Source: Oscillospiraceae bacterium
Lineage (GTDB): Bacteria; Bacillota; Clostridia; Oscillospirales; Oscillospiraceae
DNA length: 64,000 nt
Direction of reading: 5' to 3'
NCBI GenBank assembly: GCA_021769865.1
Contig: JAETSB010000013.1
Location: 1 to 64,000, forward strand
A model generated the notes under the pieces. It saw only the letters and a list, made by a program, of their open reading frames with translations, did not search any database and was not told where the DNA came from. Of the stretch, positions 3,753 to 45,195 are shown in pieces; position 1 is the stretch's first letter; every line of letters starts with the position of its first letter. The translations under genes were made by a program, and so were the position numbers.

Positions 3753-3813
3753 CTTTGGGGTTTTCCCATGGGGAAGGGCTTATACTCGCCCTTCGGGCGG
3801 GGTGGATGGGTGA

Positions 3814-3912
3814 CCAGCGATGGCTGGTTCATTGCACCCCCCATTTTCTCTTTTTCTTCCAGAAGAAAAAGAGAAAACGGGCCGTGCACGGTCCAAAAGA
3901 GAAAAAGAAGTA
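3814..3912 (+). repeat. 99-bp dispersed structured element, copy 1
   Basis: This stretch recurs inverted at 43935-44033 with 96 of 99 bases identical. It starts with a CCAGC-gatg-GCTGG hairpin, then GTTCATTGCACCCCCC. Three 16-base arms follow: A (3844-3859, pyrimidines), B (3862-3877, the exact complement of A after a 2-base gap) and C (3895-3910, the exact mirror image of B, read backwards without complementing). B and C are separated by 17 bases containing the palindrome CCGTGCACGG. Open reading frames crossing it (such as one reading FSLFLPEEKEKTGRARSKR) follow the repeat in several frames and are not believed to be genes. Confidence 0.9.
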
Positions 3913-3913
3913 A

Positions 3914-3940
3914 GGCCGCCGAAAACGGCGGCCCTTTTCG
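3914..3940 (-). terminator. Terminator, probably bidirectional
   Basis: GGCCGCC-gaaaac-GGCGGCC hairpin just after the stop of the small minus-strand gene, with T-rich sequence on both sides. It abuts repeat copy 1. Confidence 0.6.
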
Positions 3941-4242: not shown

Positions 4243-4485
4243 ATGAACGGAAACAAAGAAGAATTCCGGGAGGAGTTTCGTCTCCTGGGCCTGCGCATTG
4301 CCTATTACCGGCGAAAGCTCGGCCTAACCCAAGAGGAACTGGCGGACCAAATCGGGTGCAGTTGGAGCTTCCTCAGCCAGTTAGAGGCCAACAACGGCAA
4401 GCGTATTCACGCGCCCTCTCTTTTACTGCTCTTCCGCATGGCCAAGTTTTTTGACATCCCCGTCACAAAATTATTTGAAGACTGA
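4243..4485 (+). CDS. XRE-family helix-turn-helix protein (first of a tandem pair)
   Basis: 80-residue single-domain DNA-binding protein. The HTH covers about residues 14-72 (LGLRIAYYRRKLGLTQEELADQ, then CSWSFLSQLEANNG, ending in DIPVTKLFED). It is about half identical by eye to the next gene, so the pair arose by duplication. Such proteins usually repress their own promoter; the dyad at 4206-4219 is a candidate site. There is no recognisable toxin or phage gene beside it. Confidence 0.85.
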   Translation: MNGNKEEFREEFRLLGLRIAYYRRKLGLTQEELADQIGCSWSFLSQLEANNGKRIHAPSLLLLFRMAKFFDIPVTKLFED

Positions 4486-4539
4486 TCCGCCGCGGCACAT
4501 GCTGCTATCGTTAGTAGGCAAAAGAGGAGCGTGTACCAG

Positions 4540-4911
4540 ATGGAAAAATATCGGGAGCAGTATCGAATGCTGGGACTGCGAATTGCATTCTATCGCAAGA
4601 AAGCCGGATTAACCCAGGAACAATTTGCCGATCTAGTTGGCTGCAGCATGGGGTTCCTCAGCCGCATTGAGGCCAATAACGGCAAAAAGGTCTCCGGGAT
4701 TTCCCTGCCCATGCTTTTTCGTATGGCCGATGTTTTAAATGTTTCCGTCTGCTGCTTTTTAGAAGACCGCAACCAAATCACCCCGCCGCCGGGATCCGGC
4801 GGCGTTTTTCTTTTGCGCGCTCCCGCCGGGCCTGTTCCGTTACCGTTTTGTAACCTTTCCCCATTCCACTCCCGAATCTTTTCCAGTCAATTCTTGTCCA
4901 ATTGGGTCTAA
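4540..4911 (+). CDS. XRE-family helix-turn-helix protein with read-through tail
   Basis: 123 residues from ATG 4540, which has GAGGAG 10 bases upstream; the GTG at 4531 is too close to it. Residues 1-75 are an XRE HTH domain (LGLRIAFYRKKAGLTQEQFADL, CSMGFLSRIEANNG, SVCCFLEDRNQ) paralogous to the previous gene. The paralogue stops after its equivalent of FLED. Here the frame continues about 48 codons and runs straight through a strong terminator hairpin (4784-4814) into non-conserved-looking sequence. The true protein probably ended near residue 78, and the tail may result from loss of a stop codon. Confidence 0.75.
   Translation: MEKYREQYRMLGLRIAFYRKKAGLTQEQFADLVGCSMGFLSRIEANNGKKVSGISLPMLFRMADVLNVSVCCFLEDRNQITPPPGSGGVFLLRAPAGPVPLPFCNLSPFHSRIFSSQFLSNWV
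4784..4814 (+). terminator. Intrinsic terminator inside the XRE2 reading frame
   Basis: CGCCGCCGG (4784-4792), loop GAT, CCGGCGGCG (4796-4804), then TTTTTCTTTT. A 9-bp perfect GC stem with a U-tract is as clear a terminator as any in the window, yet no stop codon of the XRE2 frame precedes it. Confidence 0.85.
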
Positions 4912-6438: not shown

Positions 6439-7164
6439 ATGAACACTCATACATCCCATACCAAGGCCATCCGCGCCCAGCTTCTGGAGGCCATGCGCAC
6501 CGGCGAATACGCTCCGTGCGAGCGTCTGCCCCGGGAGAGCGTGCTCTGCGTGAAGCTGGGCATCAGCCGCACTCAGCTGCGGGACATTCTGGCCTCCCTG
6601 GAGCGGGAGGGCTTCATCACCCGCCGCCACGGCGTGGGCACCATCATCAACCGCCACGTGCTGGACGTCCACACCCGCATGGACATTGAGGTGGAGTTCC
6701 TGGACATGATCCGGCAGAACGGCTTTACCCCGGCGGTGGCCTCCATCCGCTTCTGGGAGGAGCCGGCGGACGAAAAGACCGCCGCCCAGCTCCAGCTCCC
6801 GGAGGGAACGTCCATGCTCCGGGTCTCCCGTCTCTGCACCGCCGACGGCCGCCCCGCCATCTACTGCGAGGATGTCATTGAAAAGGCCCTGATCCGGGAG
6901 AACTACACGGAGGAGGACCTGAAGCCGCCCATCTTCCATTTCCTCCAGCAGTCCTGCGGCATCTACCCCTATCTGGACCTGACGGACCTCCGGGCCGTTC
7001 CGGCGGATGAGAAGCTGGCGGACATTCTTCAGGTTCCCGTGGGGACGCCCCTGCTGTATATGGAAGAGGTGGACTACGACATCGACGGCAAGCCGGTGTT
7101 CTGCTCCGCCGAATACTTTGCCGACGGCATTTTCCGGCACACGGTCCTGCGAAAGAAGCTGTAA
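6439..7164 (+). CDS. GntR-family (HutC/UTRA) transcriptional regulator
   Basis: 241 residues. The winged HTH spans about 5-75 (KAIRAQLLEAMRTGEYAPCERLPRES, then LGISRTQLRDILASLEREGFITRRHGVGT). A UTRA ligand-binding domain covers about 95-238 (PEGTSMLRVSRLCTADGRPAIYCED, GTPLLYMEEVDYDIDGKPVFCSAEYFADGIF). ATG 6439 is favoured over the GTG at 6430, which forms part of the ribosome site. Only 23 bases separate it from purE, so it is the first gene of the purine operon. UTRA domains bind small effectors such as sugar phosphates; here a purine-pathway metabolite is plausible but unproven. Confidence 0.88.
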   Translation: MNTHTSHTKAIRAQLLEAMRTGEYAPCERLPRESVLCVKLGISRTQLRDILASLEREGFITRRHGVGTIINRHVLDVHTRMDIEVEFLDMIRQNGFTPAVASIRFWEEPADEKTAAQLQLPEGTSMLRVSRLCTADGRPAIYCEDVIEKALIRENYTEEDLKPPIFHFLQQSCGIYPYLDLTDLRAVPADEKLADILQVPVGTPLLYMEEVDYDIDGKPVFCSAEYFADGIFRHTVLRKKL

Positions 7165-43463: not shown

Positions 43464-43889
43464 ATGAACCGTGAAAATAAACGGAAGTTATACGAAAAAG
43501 GCTATTACAAAACCCATCCCTGTACCGACGCCTTCACCTGCCGGGTCTGCGGCCGCCTGGTCACACCCGGCGGGGCAGGCGCGGACCACCGCAATCACTG
43601 CCCCAACTGCCTCTCCAGCGTCCACCTGGACGTGGAGCCCGGCGACCGGGCGGCGGACTGCGGCGGCGTCATGGACCCCATTGCCGTGTGGGTCCGCAAG
43701 GGCGGCGAGTGGGCCGTGGTCCACCGCTGCCGCCGCTGCGGGACCTTGGGCTCCAACCGGATTGCCGCAGACGACAATCCCATGAAGCTGATGAGCATCG
43801 CCATGAAGCCCCTGTGCGCCCCGCCCTTCCCGCTGGAGCGCATTGAAGAGATGACCGCTCTCATGGGCGGCAGCGGGTCCATGGGATAG
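43464..43889 (+). CDS. RNHCP-domain protein
   Basis: 141 residues. It carries the family signature DHRNHCPNCLSSVHLD and further Cys pairs (FTCRVCGRLV, HRCRRCGTLGSNRIAADDNP), so it probably binds zinc. RNHCP proteins are small, cytoplasmic and of unknown role. AGGAGGA precedes ATG 43464. Base usage matches the neighbours. Confidence 0.88.
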   Translation: MNRENKRKLYEKGYYKTHPCTDAFTCRVCGRLVTPGGAGADHRNHCPNCLSSVHLDVEPGDRAADCGGVMDPIAVWVRKGGEWAVVHRCRRCGTLGSNRIAADDNPMKLMSIAMKPLCAPPFPLERIEEMTALMGGSGSMG

Positions 43890-43934
43890 ATCAAATTCTA
43901 CCGATAGAAGAGCAAAAAAAGCCCGAAGGGCCCA

Positions 43935-44033
43935 TACTTCCTTTTCTCTTTTGGACCGTGCACGGCCCGTTTTCTCTTTTCCTTCTGGAAGGAAAAGAGA
44001 AAATGGGGGGTGCAATGAACCAGCCATCGCTGG
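43935..44033 (-). repeat. 99-bp dispersed structured element, copy 2 (inverted)
   Basis: Reverse complement of copy 1 at 3814-3912 with three differences in 99 bases. In plus coordinates arm C is 43937-43952, spacer 43953-43969, arm B 43970-43985, arm A 43988-44003. The three differences fall one in each arm at corresponding positions, so A still pairs with B and C is still the exact mirror of B. It lies between the RNHCP gene and a peptidase gene. Open frames crossing it on both strands are judged spurious. Confidence 0.9.
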
Positions 44034-44106
44034 CATCCAATCCATCCCGCGCGTCAGCGCCGAAAAAATCCTTCCCCGCTGGGGAAACAGGAAGGACAGT
44101 CTTTCT

Positions 44107-45195
44107 ATGAATCACTACGCCAACCTCGCCGCCGCCCTGGAGGCGGAGGACCTGGACGCAGTCCTCCTCACCGGGGAGGCCAACCGCTTCTACGCCTCCG
44201 GCTTCTTCACTCCCGGAGGGGACGCCACCGCCCTGGTCACCCGGAAGGACGCGGTCTTTTTCACCGACGCCCGGTACACGGAGGCCGCCGCCCGCCATCT
44301 GGACGGGGCGGAGCTCCGGGAAGTCAAGCCCGGCAAGGGCCTGATGGACCAGCTCCGGGAGGTGCTGTTCTTAAAAGGAGTCCGCCGCTTAGGGATCGAG
44401 GACGCCGCCATAACCGTGCAGTCCTACCGGCGGCTGGAAAAGGCCCTGTCGGAGGAGAAATCTCCCCCCCAGCTGGTCCCCGCCTCGGAGGCCATCTTAA
44501 AGCTCAGGCAGACCAAAGACCAGGAGGAGCTCCAAGCCATGGAGGCCGCCCAGGGCATCGCCGAGCGGGCCCTGGAGGACATCGTGAAGGAACTCCGTCC
44601 CGGCGTGACGGAAAAGGAGATCGCCGCCCGGCTCCAGTACCTCATGCTCAACTACGGCGCGTCGGACATGTCCTTCGACCCCATCGTGGTCTCCGGGCCC
44701 AACGGAAGCCTCCCCCACGGCGTGCCCTCGAAAAAAGAAATTCAACCCGGGGAGTTCGTCACCATGGACTTCGGCTGCATCTACGGCGGCTACTGCTCCG
44801 ACATGACCCGCACCGTGGCGGTGGGGTCCGTGACGGAGGAGATGGAGCGGGTGTACCGGACCGTCCTGGCCGCCCAGGAGGCGGGCATCGCCGCCGCCAG
44901 GGCCGGGGTCCCCGGCAAGGCGGTGGACACCGCCGCCCGGGCCGTCATTGAGGAGGCGGGTTATGGGGAGTACTTCACCCACAGCTTCGGCCACGGGGTG
45001 GGCGTGGAGATCCATGAGGCCCCCAACGCCGCCTCCAGCAACGACAAGCCCCTCCCCGCCGGGGCGGTGATCTCGGCGGAACCGGGCATCTATATCCCCG
45101 GCAAACTGGGGGTCCGCATTGAGGACGTGATTTTGATTACCCCGGAGGGCTGCCGGAACCTGACGAAGGCCCCCAAGGAACTGCTGATACTCTGA
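44107..45195 (+). CDS. Xaa-Pro aminopeptidase / prolidase (M24)
   Basis: 362 residues. A creatinase-type N-domain covers about 1-125 (VLLTGEANRFYASGFF). The pita-bread metallopeptidase domain (about 135-360) has metal ligands Asp, Asp (MDFGCIYGGYCSDMTRTV), His (HSFGHGVGVEIHE), Glu (SAEPGIYIPG) and Glu (GVRIEDVILIT). It removes N-terminal residues before proline. It is first of an operon with the ArsC-like and Dus genes. ATG 44107 follows AGGAAGGA at a rather long spacing. Confidence 0.93.
   Translation: MNHYANLAAALEAEDLDAVLLTGEANRFYASGFFTPGGDATALVTRKDAVFFTDARYTEAAARHLDGAELREVKPGKGLMDQLREVLFLKGVRRLGIEDAAITVQSYRRLEKALSEEKSPPQLVPASEAILKLRQTKDQEELQAMEAAQGIAERALEDIVKELRPGVTEKEIAARLQYLMLNYGASDMSFDPIVVSGPNGSLPHGVPSKKEIQPGEFVTMDFGCIYGGYCSDMTRTVAVGSVTEEMERVYRTVLAAQEAGIAAARAGVPGKAVDTAARAVIEEAGYGEYFTHSFGHGVGVEIHEAPNAASSNDKPLPAGAVISAEPGIYIPGKLGVRIEDVILITPEGCRNLTKAPKELLIL

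Follow-up and report, generated by a model that had tools for sequence, protein, structure and literature searches.

The stretch of DNA analysed here (the window) comprises 64,000 nucleotides of an Oscillospiraceae bacterium (GenBank assembly GCA_021769865.1, contig JAETSB010000013.1, positions 1 to 64,000 of the forward strand) and contains two inverted copies of a repeat of 99 base pairs (bp), copy 1 at 3814-3912 and copy 2 at 43935-44033. Side-by-side reading confirmed the observation of the initial annotation, made from the sequence alone, that the copies lie at these positions and that their sole differences (T3855, A3866 and A3906 in copy 1 against C, G and G in copy 2) are coordinated among three arms, A, B and C. 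Arms A and B are complementary, as had been proposed, but the stem has 15 bp and a loop of 4 nucleotides (nt) rather than the proposed 16 bp, because a 16th pair would shrink the loop to 2 nt. Arm C is indeed the exact mirror of arm B, an order that 575 of 1,000,000 shuffles reach with the letters held fixed. The complement of the + strand of copy 1 carries, in this order, a pyrimidine arm C', a linker, a pyrimidine arm B', a loop and a purine arm A', with C' parallel to A'. Here we present a comparison of this repeat among related genomes, in the light of which it appears to serve as an end module for one family of small mobile elements, found in the gut bacterial family that includes Oscillibacter, with a three-arm fold that would act in outward-transcribed RNA and be needed by the element; the probability of this explanation as a whole is put at about 0.55.

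The covariation of the arms was assessed in an alignment of 83 distinct sequences, to which elements were admitted only with a pairable loop-tail stem (see below) and an arm of 10-16 nt. Over the first 12 positions from the base of the stem, C' matched A' at 892 of 920 purine positions (97.0%), whereas 500 shuffles of the letters of arm C gave a mean of 77.0% and a maximum of 79.7%, and registers slid by 1-3 positions gave 48.5-71.5%. A set selected neither for loop-tail pairing nor for arm C, in which rare degraded forms count equally with common ones, matched at 330 of 386 positions (85.5%; 40 distinct combinations). The 202 distinct contexts collected reduce to 110 distinct C'/B'/A'/loop sequences. 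In the per-column table of distinct contexts, A-T occurs with T or G-C with C nearly throughout near the base (54 + 53 against 3 others at column 7), and at column 10 from the base 71 + 25 cases are canonical against 12 others.

The search of the genome and its relatives that had been proposed in the initial annotation was carried out, and 36 places were found in the own genome, the window copies being 2 of them. The pattern used (palindrome plus arm C) is loose and includes arm C loosely; a control pattern matched 0 places forward and 1 reverse. The 36 copies represent 12 distinct A'/C' combinations. Their third strand is canonical along the whole stem in 24 and one position off in 10 (topmost in 7 of these), with at least 10 contiguous canonical positions from the stem base in 33 of the 36, and in an 11-bp form (6 copies) the stem and arm C are shortened jointly.

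Since shuffles ignore relatedness, copies from outside the genus carry more weight. When these were read by the hairpin alone, the third strand was perfect in 45 and had at most one mismatch in 54 of 68 sense hairpins (29 distinct arms, 12 genomes), compared with 0 of 52 in the opposite-strand control; 62 of the 182 rows of this table were left unassigned by the strand rule and include both sense rows (18 of them perfect) and antisense rows. The DNA read (80 regions and 21 loci) covered most of the 105 places listed by a covariance model in which C' is not linked to A', but an average C' is modelled. An earlier strand rule, which set aside rows with CCC before the arm (including G298, G350 and G261), gave 53 of 61 with a control of 0 of 66. 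Where the arms are of mixed composition, as in GAGAAGAAGAGGAG with CTCTTCTTCTCCTC, a match by chance is improbable. Independent variation of arm C, or a mirror broken at the chance rate, was looked for and not found; some copies are without arm C. The folded three-stranded helix with covarying arms that had been suggested from the two window copies is thus upheld as a prediction: three-way covariation of the arms is well supported in the sequences compared, and it is very highly probable that the predicted three-arm fold is selected.

An effect at the level of the duplex, in which the mirror arms are repeated protein-binding homopurine tracts read in both directions and no triplex exists, is a rival reading: arms A/B on the one hand and arm C on the other repeat a single purine tract in opposite senses, which a tract-binding protein would recognise as well. 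A binding site would, however, keep its sequence and not merely a relation, whereas the arms vary in sequence and length between genera yet stay matched in a fixed register from the stem base, and direct (non-mirror) matching reached 0.50-0.72 against 0.89 (registers -1, 0, +1). Binding of this kind is regarded as very improbable.

The palindrome CCGTGCACGG between the arms, previously suggested as a simple turn of the chain, is a small hairpin of the form CCG[TNNA]CGG (P0); its loop pairs with the stretch that follows the G run on the 3' side of the purine arm (stem P1; the B'/A' stem is termed P2). In the 83 sequences, 97.5% of the cells of P1 and P2 are paired and 15 of the 24 pairs show changes on both sides, P1 pairing being a condition of selection, and the stem covariation score is 0.309 against 0.117 when shuffled and at most 0.124 when slid. 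In a set of 188 elements gathered without a pairing condition, loop and tail are complementary in 168 (20 others), as TGCAC/TGCA (123), TCCAC/TGGA (25), TGAAC/TTCA (18), TCAAC/TTGA (1) and GGCGC/CGCC (1). Complementarity also links the nucleotide preceding the linker A to the one two positions beyond CGGC, in 276 of 278 distinct contexts (G-C 190, C-G 80, T-A 6), and the small stem in G350 is CGG/CCG (L334). RNAalifold, applied to whole halves, gave 27 pairs (5 two-sided) for the largest cluster and 87 pairs (23 two-sided) for a cluster of 14 sequences. Because of the loop-tail pairing, the predicted fold is a pseudoknot with a triplex-bearing hairpin. Taken as relations between sequences, the stem, the loop-tail pairing and the position-by-position tracking of A' by C' are shown by comparison, as is the covariation of the predicted pseudoknot. 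Several loci (L158, L199, L182, L113 and others) also carry a sequence-variable, well-paired hairpin (for example GAATTTGACC..GGTCAAATTC) a few bases 5' of the T-rich C'; this hairpin resembles an intrinsic terminator, of which C' would be the U tract.

The order on the complementary strand is that of the classical pyrimidine motif (U·A-U, C+·G-C, third-strand base first), which is favoured here. In the scheme described in PMC4666352 this order is class IV, and that on the + strand of copy 1 is class II. The initial annotation had instead read a reverse-Hoogsteen purine motif on the + strand of copy 1, where the class II pyrimidine-purine-purine order is in fact present; changes between A-T and G-C fit both strands equally, and the TM-ECO repeat of E. 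coli is described as such a class II motif in the same paper. It is the pair at the stem base that distinguishes the strands, because a G.U pair on the complementary strand is A.C on the + strand of copy 1. This pair is GU in 71, AU in 9 and GC in 3 of the 83 sequences, and G.T in 152, A-T in 29 and G-C in 7 of the 188 elements; in copy 1 the conserved G.U is made by the T of TGGG (3840-3843) and the G opposite 3878 (alignment column pair 33-72). The wobble thereby favours class IV on the complementary strand. The folding energy is lower on that strand in 78 of the 83 sequences (1 equal), a preference that is not independent evidence because it is largely due to the same G.U. In addition, purine-motif triple helices do not form in RNA, according to PMC4666352. 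A purine-motif triplex on the + strand of copy 1 is accordingly considered very improbable, and the sense (folding) strand is likely the complement, an assignment made from aligned sequences which does not prove RNA.

Among 149 genomes searched with up to six candidates scored per genome, the repeat was found in 59 of the same genus (86 genomes), that is the own genome and 58 others; three weak matches in other genera were no weaker than those of the same-genus genomes G035 and G080. The covariance model, applied with strict filters, matched 21 of 300 genomes of the family, 16 of them outside the genus, or a convincing 15 once the false match in G423 was dropped. Genome Taxonomy Database (GTDB) records among the matches listed name Oscillibacter, Dysosmobacter, Oscillospiraceae and one Clostridia, and we infer that the genus of the own genome holds Oscillibacter; O. 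valericigenes An411 is among the carriers of copies. One strict pattern, poorly designed, found 18 places in 4 of 7 genomes. A search of annotated phages and plasmids yielded no match to the repeat; one predicted viral contig (L255, IMG/VR contig 3300014964_000380, 6.8 kb), possibly a host fragment, carries one copy at 6620-6642.

Comparison of sites argues for insertion. At the site of copy 1 the same flanking genes occur in L258 (G036) with about 145 bp absent (the ends, 3768..3912, being placed only approximately); L259 has the neighbouring regulators and no repeat, L257, L260, L262 and L265 lack more, and a similar repeat beside the same gene was seen in 1 of 29 relatives compared (L285, G065). 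Among 11 relatives at the site of copy 2, six (L292, L295, L297-L300) have an element-free short gap, two (L293, L294) a larger insertion with a module and three (L296, L301, L302) other genes. Between the same two genes, L304 holds a full pair of modules and L311, L316, L317 and L320 show no element, the site of L004 is empty in L174, and orthologous intergenic sites in several cases hold elements with different arms in different species. In view of these empty sites the repeats are insertions, and their mobility is considered highly probable; the few empty sites that were read revealed no target duplication. The window copies, which had been treated as one inverted pair, are 2 of 36, and a 40-kb composite element bounded by them was rejected, as the empty sites corresponding to the two copies occur in different relatives.

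The loci contain 55 neighbouring pairs of modules; all 49 that are less than 1.6 kb apart (45 unique) have their folding strands outward, the remaining six being more than 2.2 kb apart, and in 26 of the 45 unique pairs the interiors of the two halves are inverted repeats as well. Many copies stand, facing outward, at the ends of small cassettes, some of them with HTH regulators. Larger units carry a divergent pair of genes, a regulator and a small protein. Two of the regulators tested match HTH_3 and a third matches regulator models below cut-offs, the others having been judged by eye; four of the small proteins, scanned against protein family libraries, matched no family. In L012, L003, L007, L182, L192 and other cassettes the two divergent genes encode an XRE-type regulator and a small protein, some 80-95 amino acids long.

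It is proposed that the outward-reading strand would fold into the small hairpin, with its loop pairing downstream, and the long B'/A' hairpin, with the upstream C' occupying the major groove of the latter in parallel orientation to A' (T/U·A-T/U, C+·G-C). The working molecule would be RNA transcribed outward, in which the triplex pseudoknot may constitute a compact block needed by the mobile element, either protecting the transcript end or serving as a recognition feature for a mobility enzyme. Two observations, the G.U pair and the transcription of cargo genes toward the modules, lead us to prefer RNA somewhat over single-stranded DNA as the folding molecule; a role in transcript protection or recognition in particular is put forward tentatively. 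The overall figure given above is kept low since the choice of strand depends chiefly on a single conserved G.U pair.

The fold may instead act as DNA, single-stranded or extruded by supercoiling at the ends of the element, where it would be recognised or would stall replication during excision or insertion. Hairpin ends of single-stranded DNA are known from other bacterial elements, and G.T pairs stabilise DNA hairpins to a degree. The units are mobile and modules stand at both cassette ends, and triplex repeats of E. coli have been linked to instability (PMC4666352). On the other side, the wobble at the stem base picks one strand, yet inverted ends give that fold at one end per strand, and Y1 transposases are not associated with the repeat; neither point is decisive. 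A recognition fold at the level of DNA is a serious rival but rather unlikely, and outward-transcribed RNA is kept as the preferred reading.

Several results weigh against the explanation preferred here. As to the third strand, the match is complete in just 24 of the 40 distinct combinations of the less selected set. In G090, 4 of 14 sense hairpins have unrelated sequence at the position of C' and a fifth matches partly; 3 of 12 sense rows in G298 are without C', as is 1 of 108 combinations in the genus (the copy in L237), another being partly matched (L241). At least one further copy in the own genome, truncated (C8:46980-47042), has the hairpin with both linker and arm C absent. The C+·G-C triplets that need protonation number 1 to 7 per helix. 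Over pyrimidine interruptions the best triplet matches are G·T-A and T·C-G; opposite pyrimidines in A', the base in C' is G in 7 of 12 cases over T, and T in 33, G in 30 and C in 18 of 81 cases over C, so that the known code is followed only loosely and these bases are suggestive at most. As to the strand, wobbles inside the stem favour neither strand under a neutral rule (G.T/T.G 3, C.A/A.C 1; an earlier count of 8 against 3 came from a G.U-tolerant stem rule and is not used), and, the modules of a pair being inverted, one end only per DNA strand carries the pyrimidine-motif fold. As to the element, no mobilising enzyme was identified, and no Y1 transposase was found in the own genome (36 copies, 80.8% complete) or in the copy-rich G005, G019 and G065. 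Outward neighbour genes are outward in 13 and inward in 23 cases by a crude open reading frame test. Rfam (evalue mode; 601 bases of the window and 8 loci, 43,184 bases) listed matches that all fall below the gathering score, and identity with an Rfam RNA was rejected for these stretches.

Other poorly matching rows outside the genus are three in G423 (a different hairpin, the false match), one in G212 (two mismatches) and one each in G288 and G348 (other hairpins or the wrong strand). It follows from the halves without C' that the long purine hairpin can exist without a third strand. In L369, L376, L377 and L378 (G090) and in L363, L365 and L366 (G298), the purine and small hairpins are kept and unrelated sequence replaces C'; the partner half in L369 does have C'. 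The two ends of a cassette may differ in role. Mobilisation of the REP/RAYT or IS200 type was rejected, there being no Y1 transposase in the own genome, G005, G019 or G065; such transposases match in 36 of the 86 genomes of the genus. A cis-acting leader of downstream genes was likewise rejected, and control of neighbouring genes is unlikely to be what the repeat mainly does, because their orientation is mixed.

The coordinates of the features of both copies are given in Table 1. Beside copy 1, positions 4243-4770 encode a tandem pair of XRE-type regulators plus a small protein resembling ribbon-helix-helix proteins (judged by eye; no Pfam match); they are not cargo of copy 1, since similar DNA occurs in G036 and G032 without the triplex repeat. 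The intergenic region at 43860-44130, together with L293, L294 and L304, is filled by different elements across species in the manner of a hot spot, between genes which we take to encode an RNHCP-like zinc-ribbon protein and an aminopeptidase-like protein. A short recurrent palindrome, CTTCTATCGGTAGAA or near variants of it, adjoins several cassettes (window about 43896-43911; L007, L009, L293).

Table 1. Features of the two repeat copies in the window.
Feature	Position	Strand	Basis or remark
Copy 1, entire inserted stretch (outer hairpin, middle hairpin, triplex module)	3768..3912	-	about 145 bp absent between same flanking genes in L258 (G036); ends approximate
Copy 1, arm C', predicted pyrimidine third strand CTTCTTTTTCTCTTTT (minus-strand reading), parallel to A'	3895..3910	-	tracks A'
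Copy 1, linker GGA and hairpin CCG[TGCA]CGG (P0)	3882..3894	-	loop-tail covariation
Copy 1, P0 loop pairing as predicted pseudoknot P1	3885..3888 with 3833..3836	-	loop-tail covariation
Copy 1, CCCG and pyrimidine arm B' (3863-3877), 5' side of P2	3863..3881	-	P1+P2 alignment
Copy 1, apical loop of P2, CTGG on minus strand	3859..3862	-	
Copy 1, purine arm A' (3844-3858) and TGGG (3840-3843), 3' side of P2	3840..3858	-	P1+P2 alignment
Copy 1, end of G run and TGCA, 3' side of P1	3833..3839	-	loop-tail covariation
Copy 1, hairpin CCAGC-CATC-GCTGG, sequence differs among copies	3814..3827	-	read by eye
Copy 1, outer hairpin CGCCC..GGGCG, recurs outside many copies	3787..3799	-	read by eye
Terminator-like hairpin immediately inside of arm C	3914..3933	.	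similar hairpin in insertion-free L258
Copy 2, triplex module and middle hairpin (folding strand plus)	43935..44033	+	
Copy 2, arm C'	43937..43952	+	
Copy 2, hairpin P0 (CCGTGCACGG)	43956..43965	+	
Copy 2, arm B'	43970..43984	+	
Copy 2, purine arm A'	43989..44003	+	

The triplex potential of genomes is usually argued from single sequences. Here, dozens of natural arm variants in which all three strands change together offer a direct test of selection for a three-stranded bacterial fold, and allow the strand, the triplet code and the length to be tested; in gut bacteria the repeat is moreover a marker for one family of mobile cassettes. No description of these mobile cassettes was found in the open-access literature searched.

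Among known systems, repetitive extragenic palindromes (REP), REPINs and miniature inverted-repeat transposable elements (MITEs) are likewise short, non-coding, intergenic, present in many copies and in inverted pairs, and are probably moved in trans. The present repeat resembles MITEs in that empty sites show its insertion. Its modules are inverted at both ends, the interiors are inverted repeats in 26 of 45 unique pairs, and no transposase was identified for them; it differs from these groups in having no link to a Y1 transposase (RAYT), in its long structured end modules and in the small genes of some cassettes. A pyrimidine strand lying parallel in the major groove of a pseudoknot is known from telomerase RNA and from the SAM-II and preQ1 riboswitches, where it forms few triplets within the pseudoknot stem itself, whereas the repeat has 8 to 16 predicted triplets, on a separate hairpin, and tens of copies. 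The U-rich internal loop of elements for nuclear expression (ENEs) serves to clamp a poly(A) tail or an A-rich 3' end. In the bacterial repeat, by contrast, the third strand lies 5' of a continuous hairpin of which A' is a paired arm, C·G-C triplets are included, and the alignment has no U-rich internal loop. The likeness would lie in a U·A-U-rich triple helix in the RNA of a mobile element, ENEs occurring in RNAs of transposable elements and others (PMC12501189 and PMC11411715); the ENE of plant transposon RNA (PMC12501189) is a functional analogue from another domain with a different plan. That the repeat represents a new class of bacterial mobile-element RNA, with a pseudoknot and a pyrimidine-motif helix of 8 to 16 triplets supported by three-way covariation across genera, at both ends of cassettes with small regulators, the fold being read in RNA by a mobility enzyme, is rather unlikely.

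With H-DNA the repeat shares homopurine mirror symmetry, but H-DNA, as described in PMC4666352, is a rearranged duplex at a mirror repeat, whereas here the hairpin of one strand supplies the duplex and is joined to a covarying loop-tail pseudoknot. The nearest relatives are the intrastrand-triplex motifs for which, according to the same paper, 5246 prokaryotic genomes and plasmids were searched, and which contradict the statement in the initial annotation that no element with this plan is known, as one published class has the same strand order. They include the G/C-rich class II repeat TM-ECO, earlier called PIT or BoxC, for which the authors found no association with mobile elements. In the main text of that paper no word begins with 'covaria' or 'Oscillibacter'. 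PIT/BoxC/TM-ECO resembles the present repeat in being intergenic, in combining a hairpin and a third strand on one strand and in forming some close inverted pairs (same paper). The repeat of the Oscillibacter group departs from the consensus CCCTCNCCC-N3-6-GGGNGAGGG-N3-GGGNGAGGG given there, its arms being A/T-rich and variable, and from TM-ECO in its favoured class IV (pyrimidine) order, its three-way covariation over many arms, its predicted pseudoknot and its mobile cassettes. As its third-strand tract fits the purine arm by the triplet rules, it probably joins the intrastrand-triplex category by definition, and it stands apart from TM-ECO in sequence and probably in strand. Such repeats being already known in bacteria, it is not a new category; what is new is a variant with a predicted pseudoknot, covariation and mobility.
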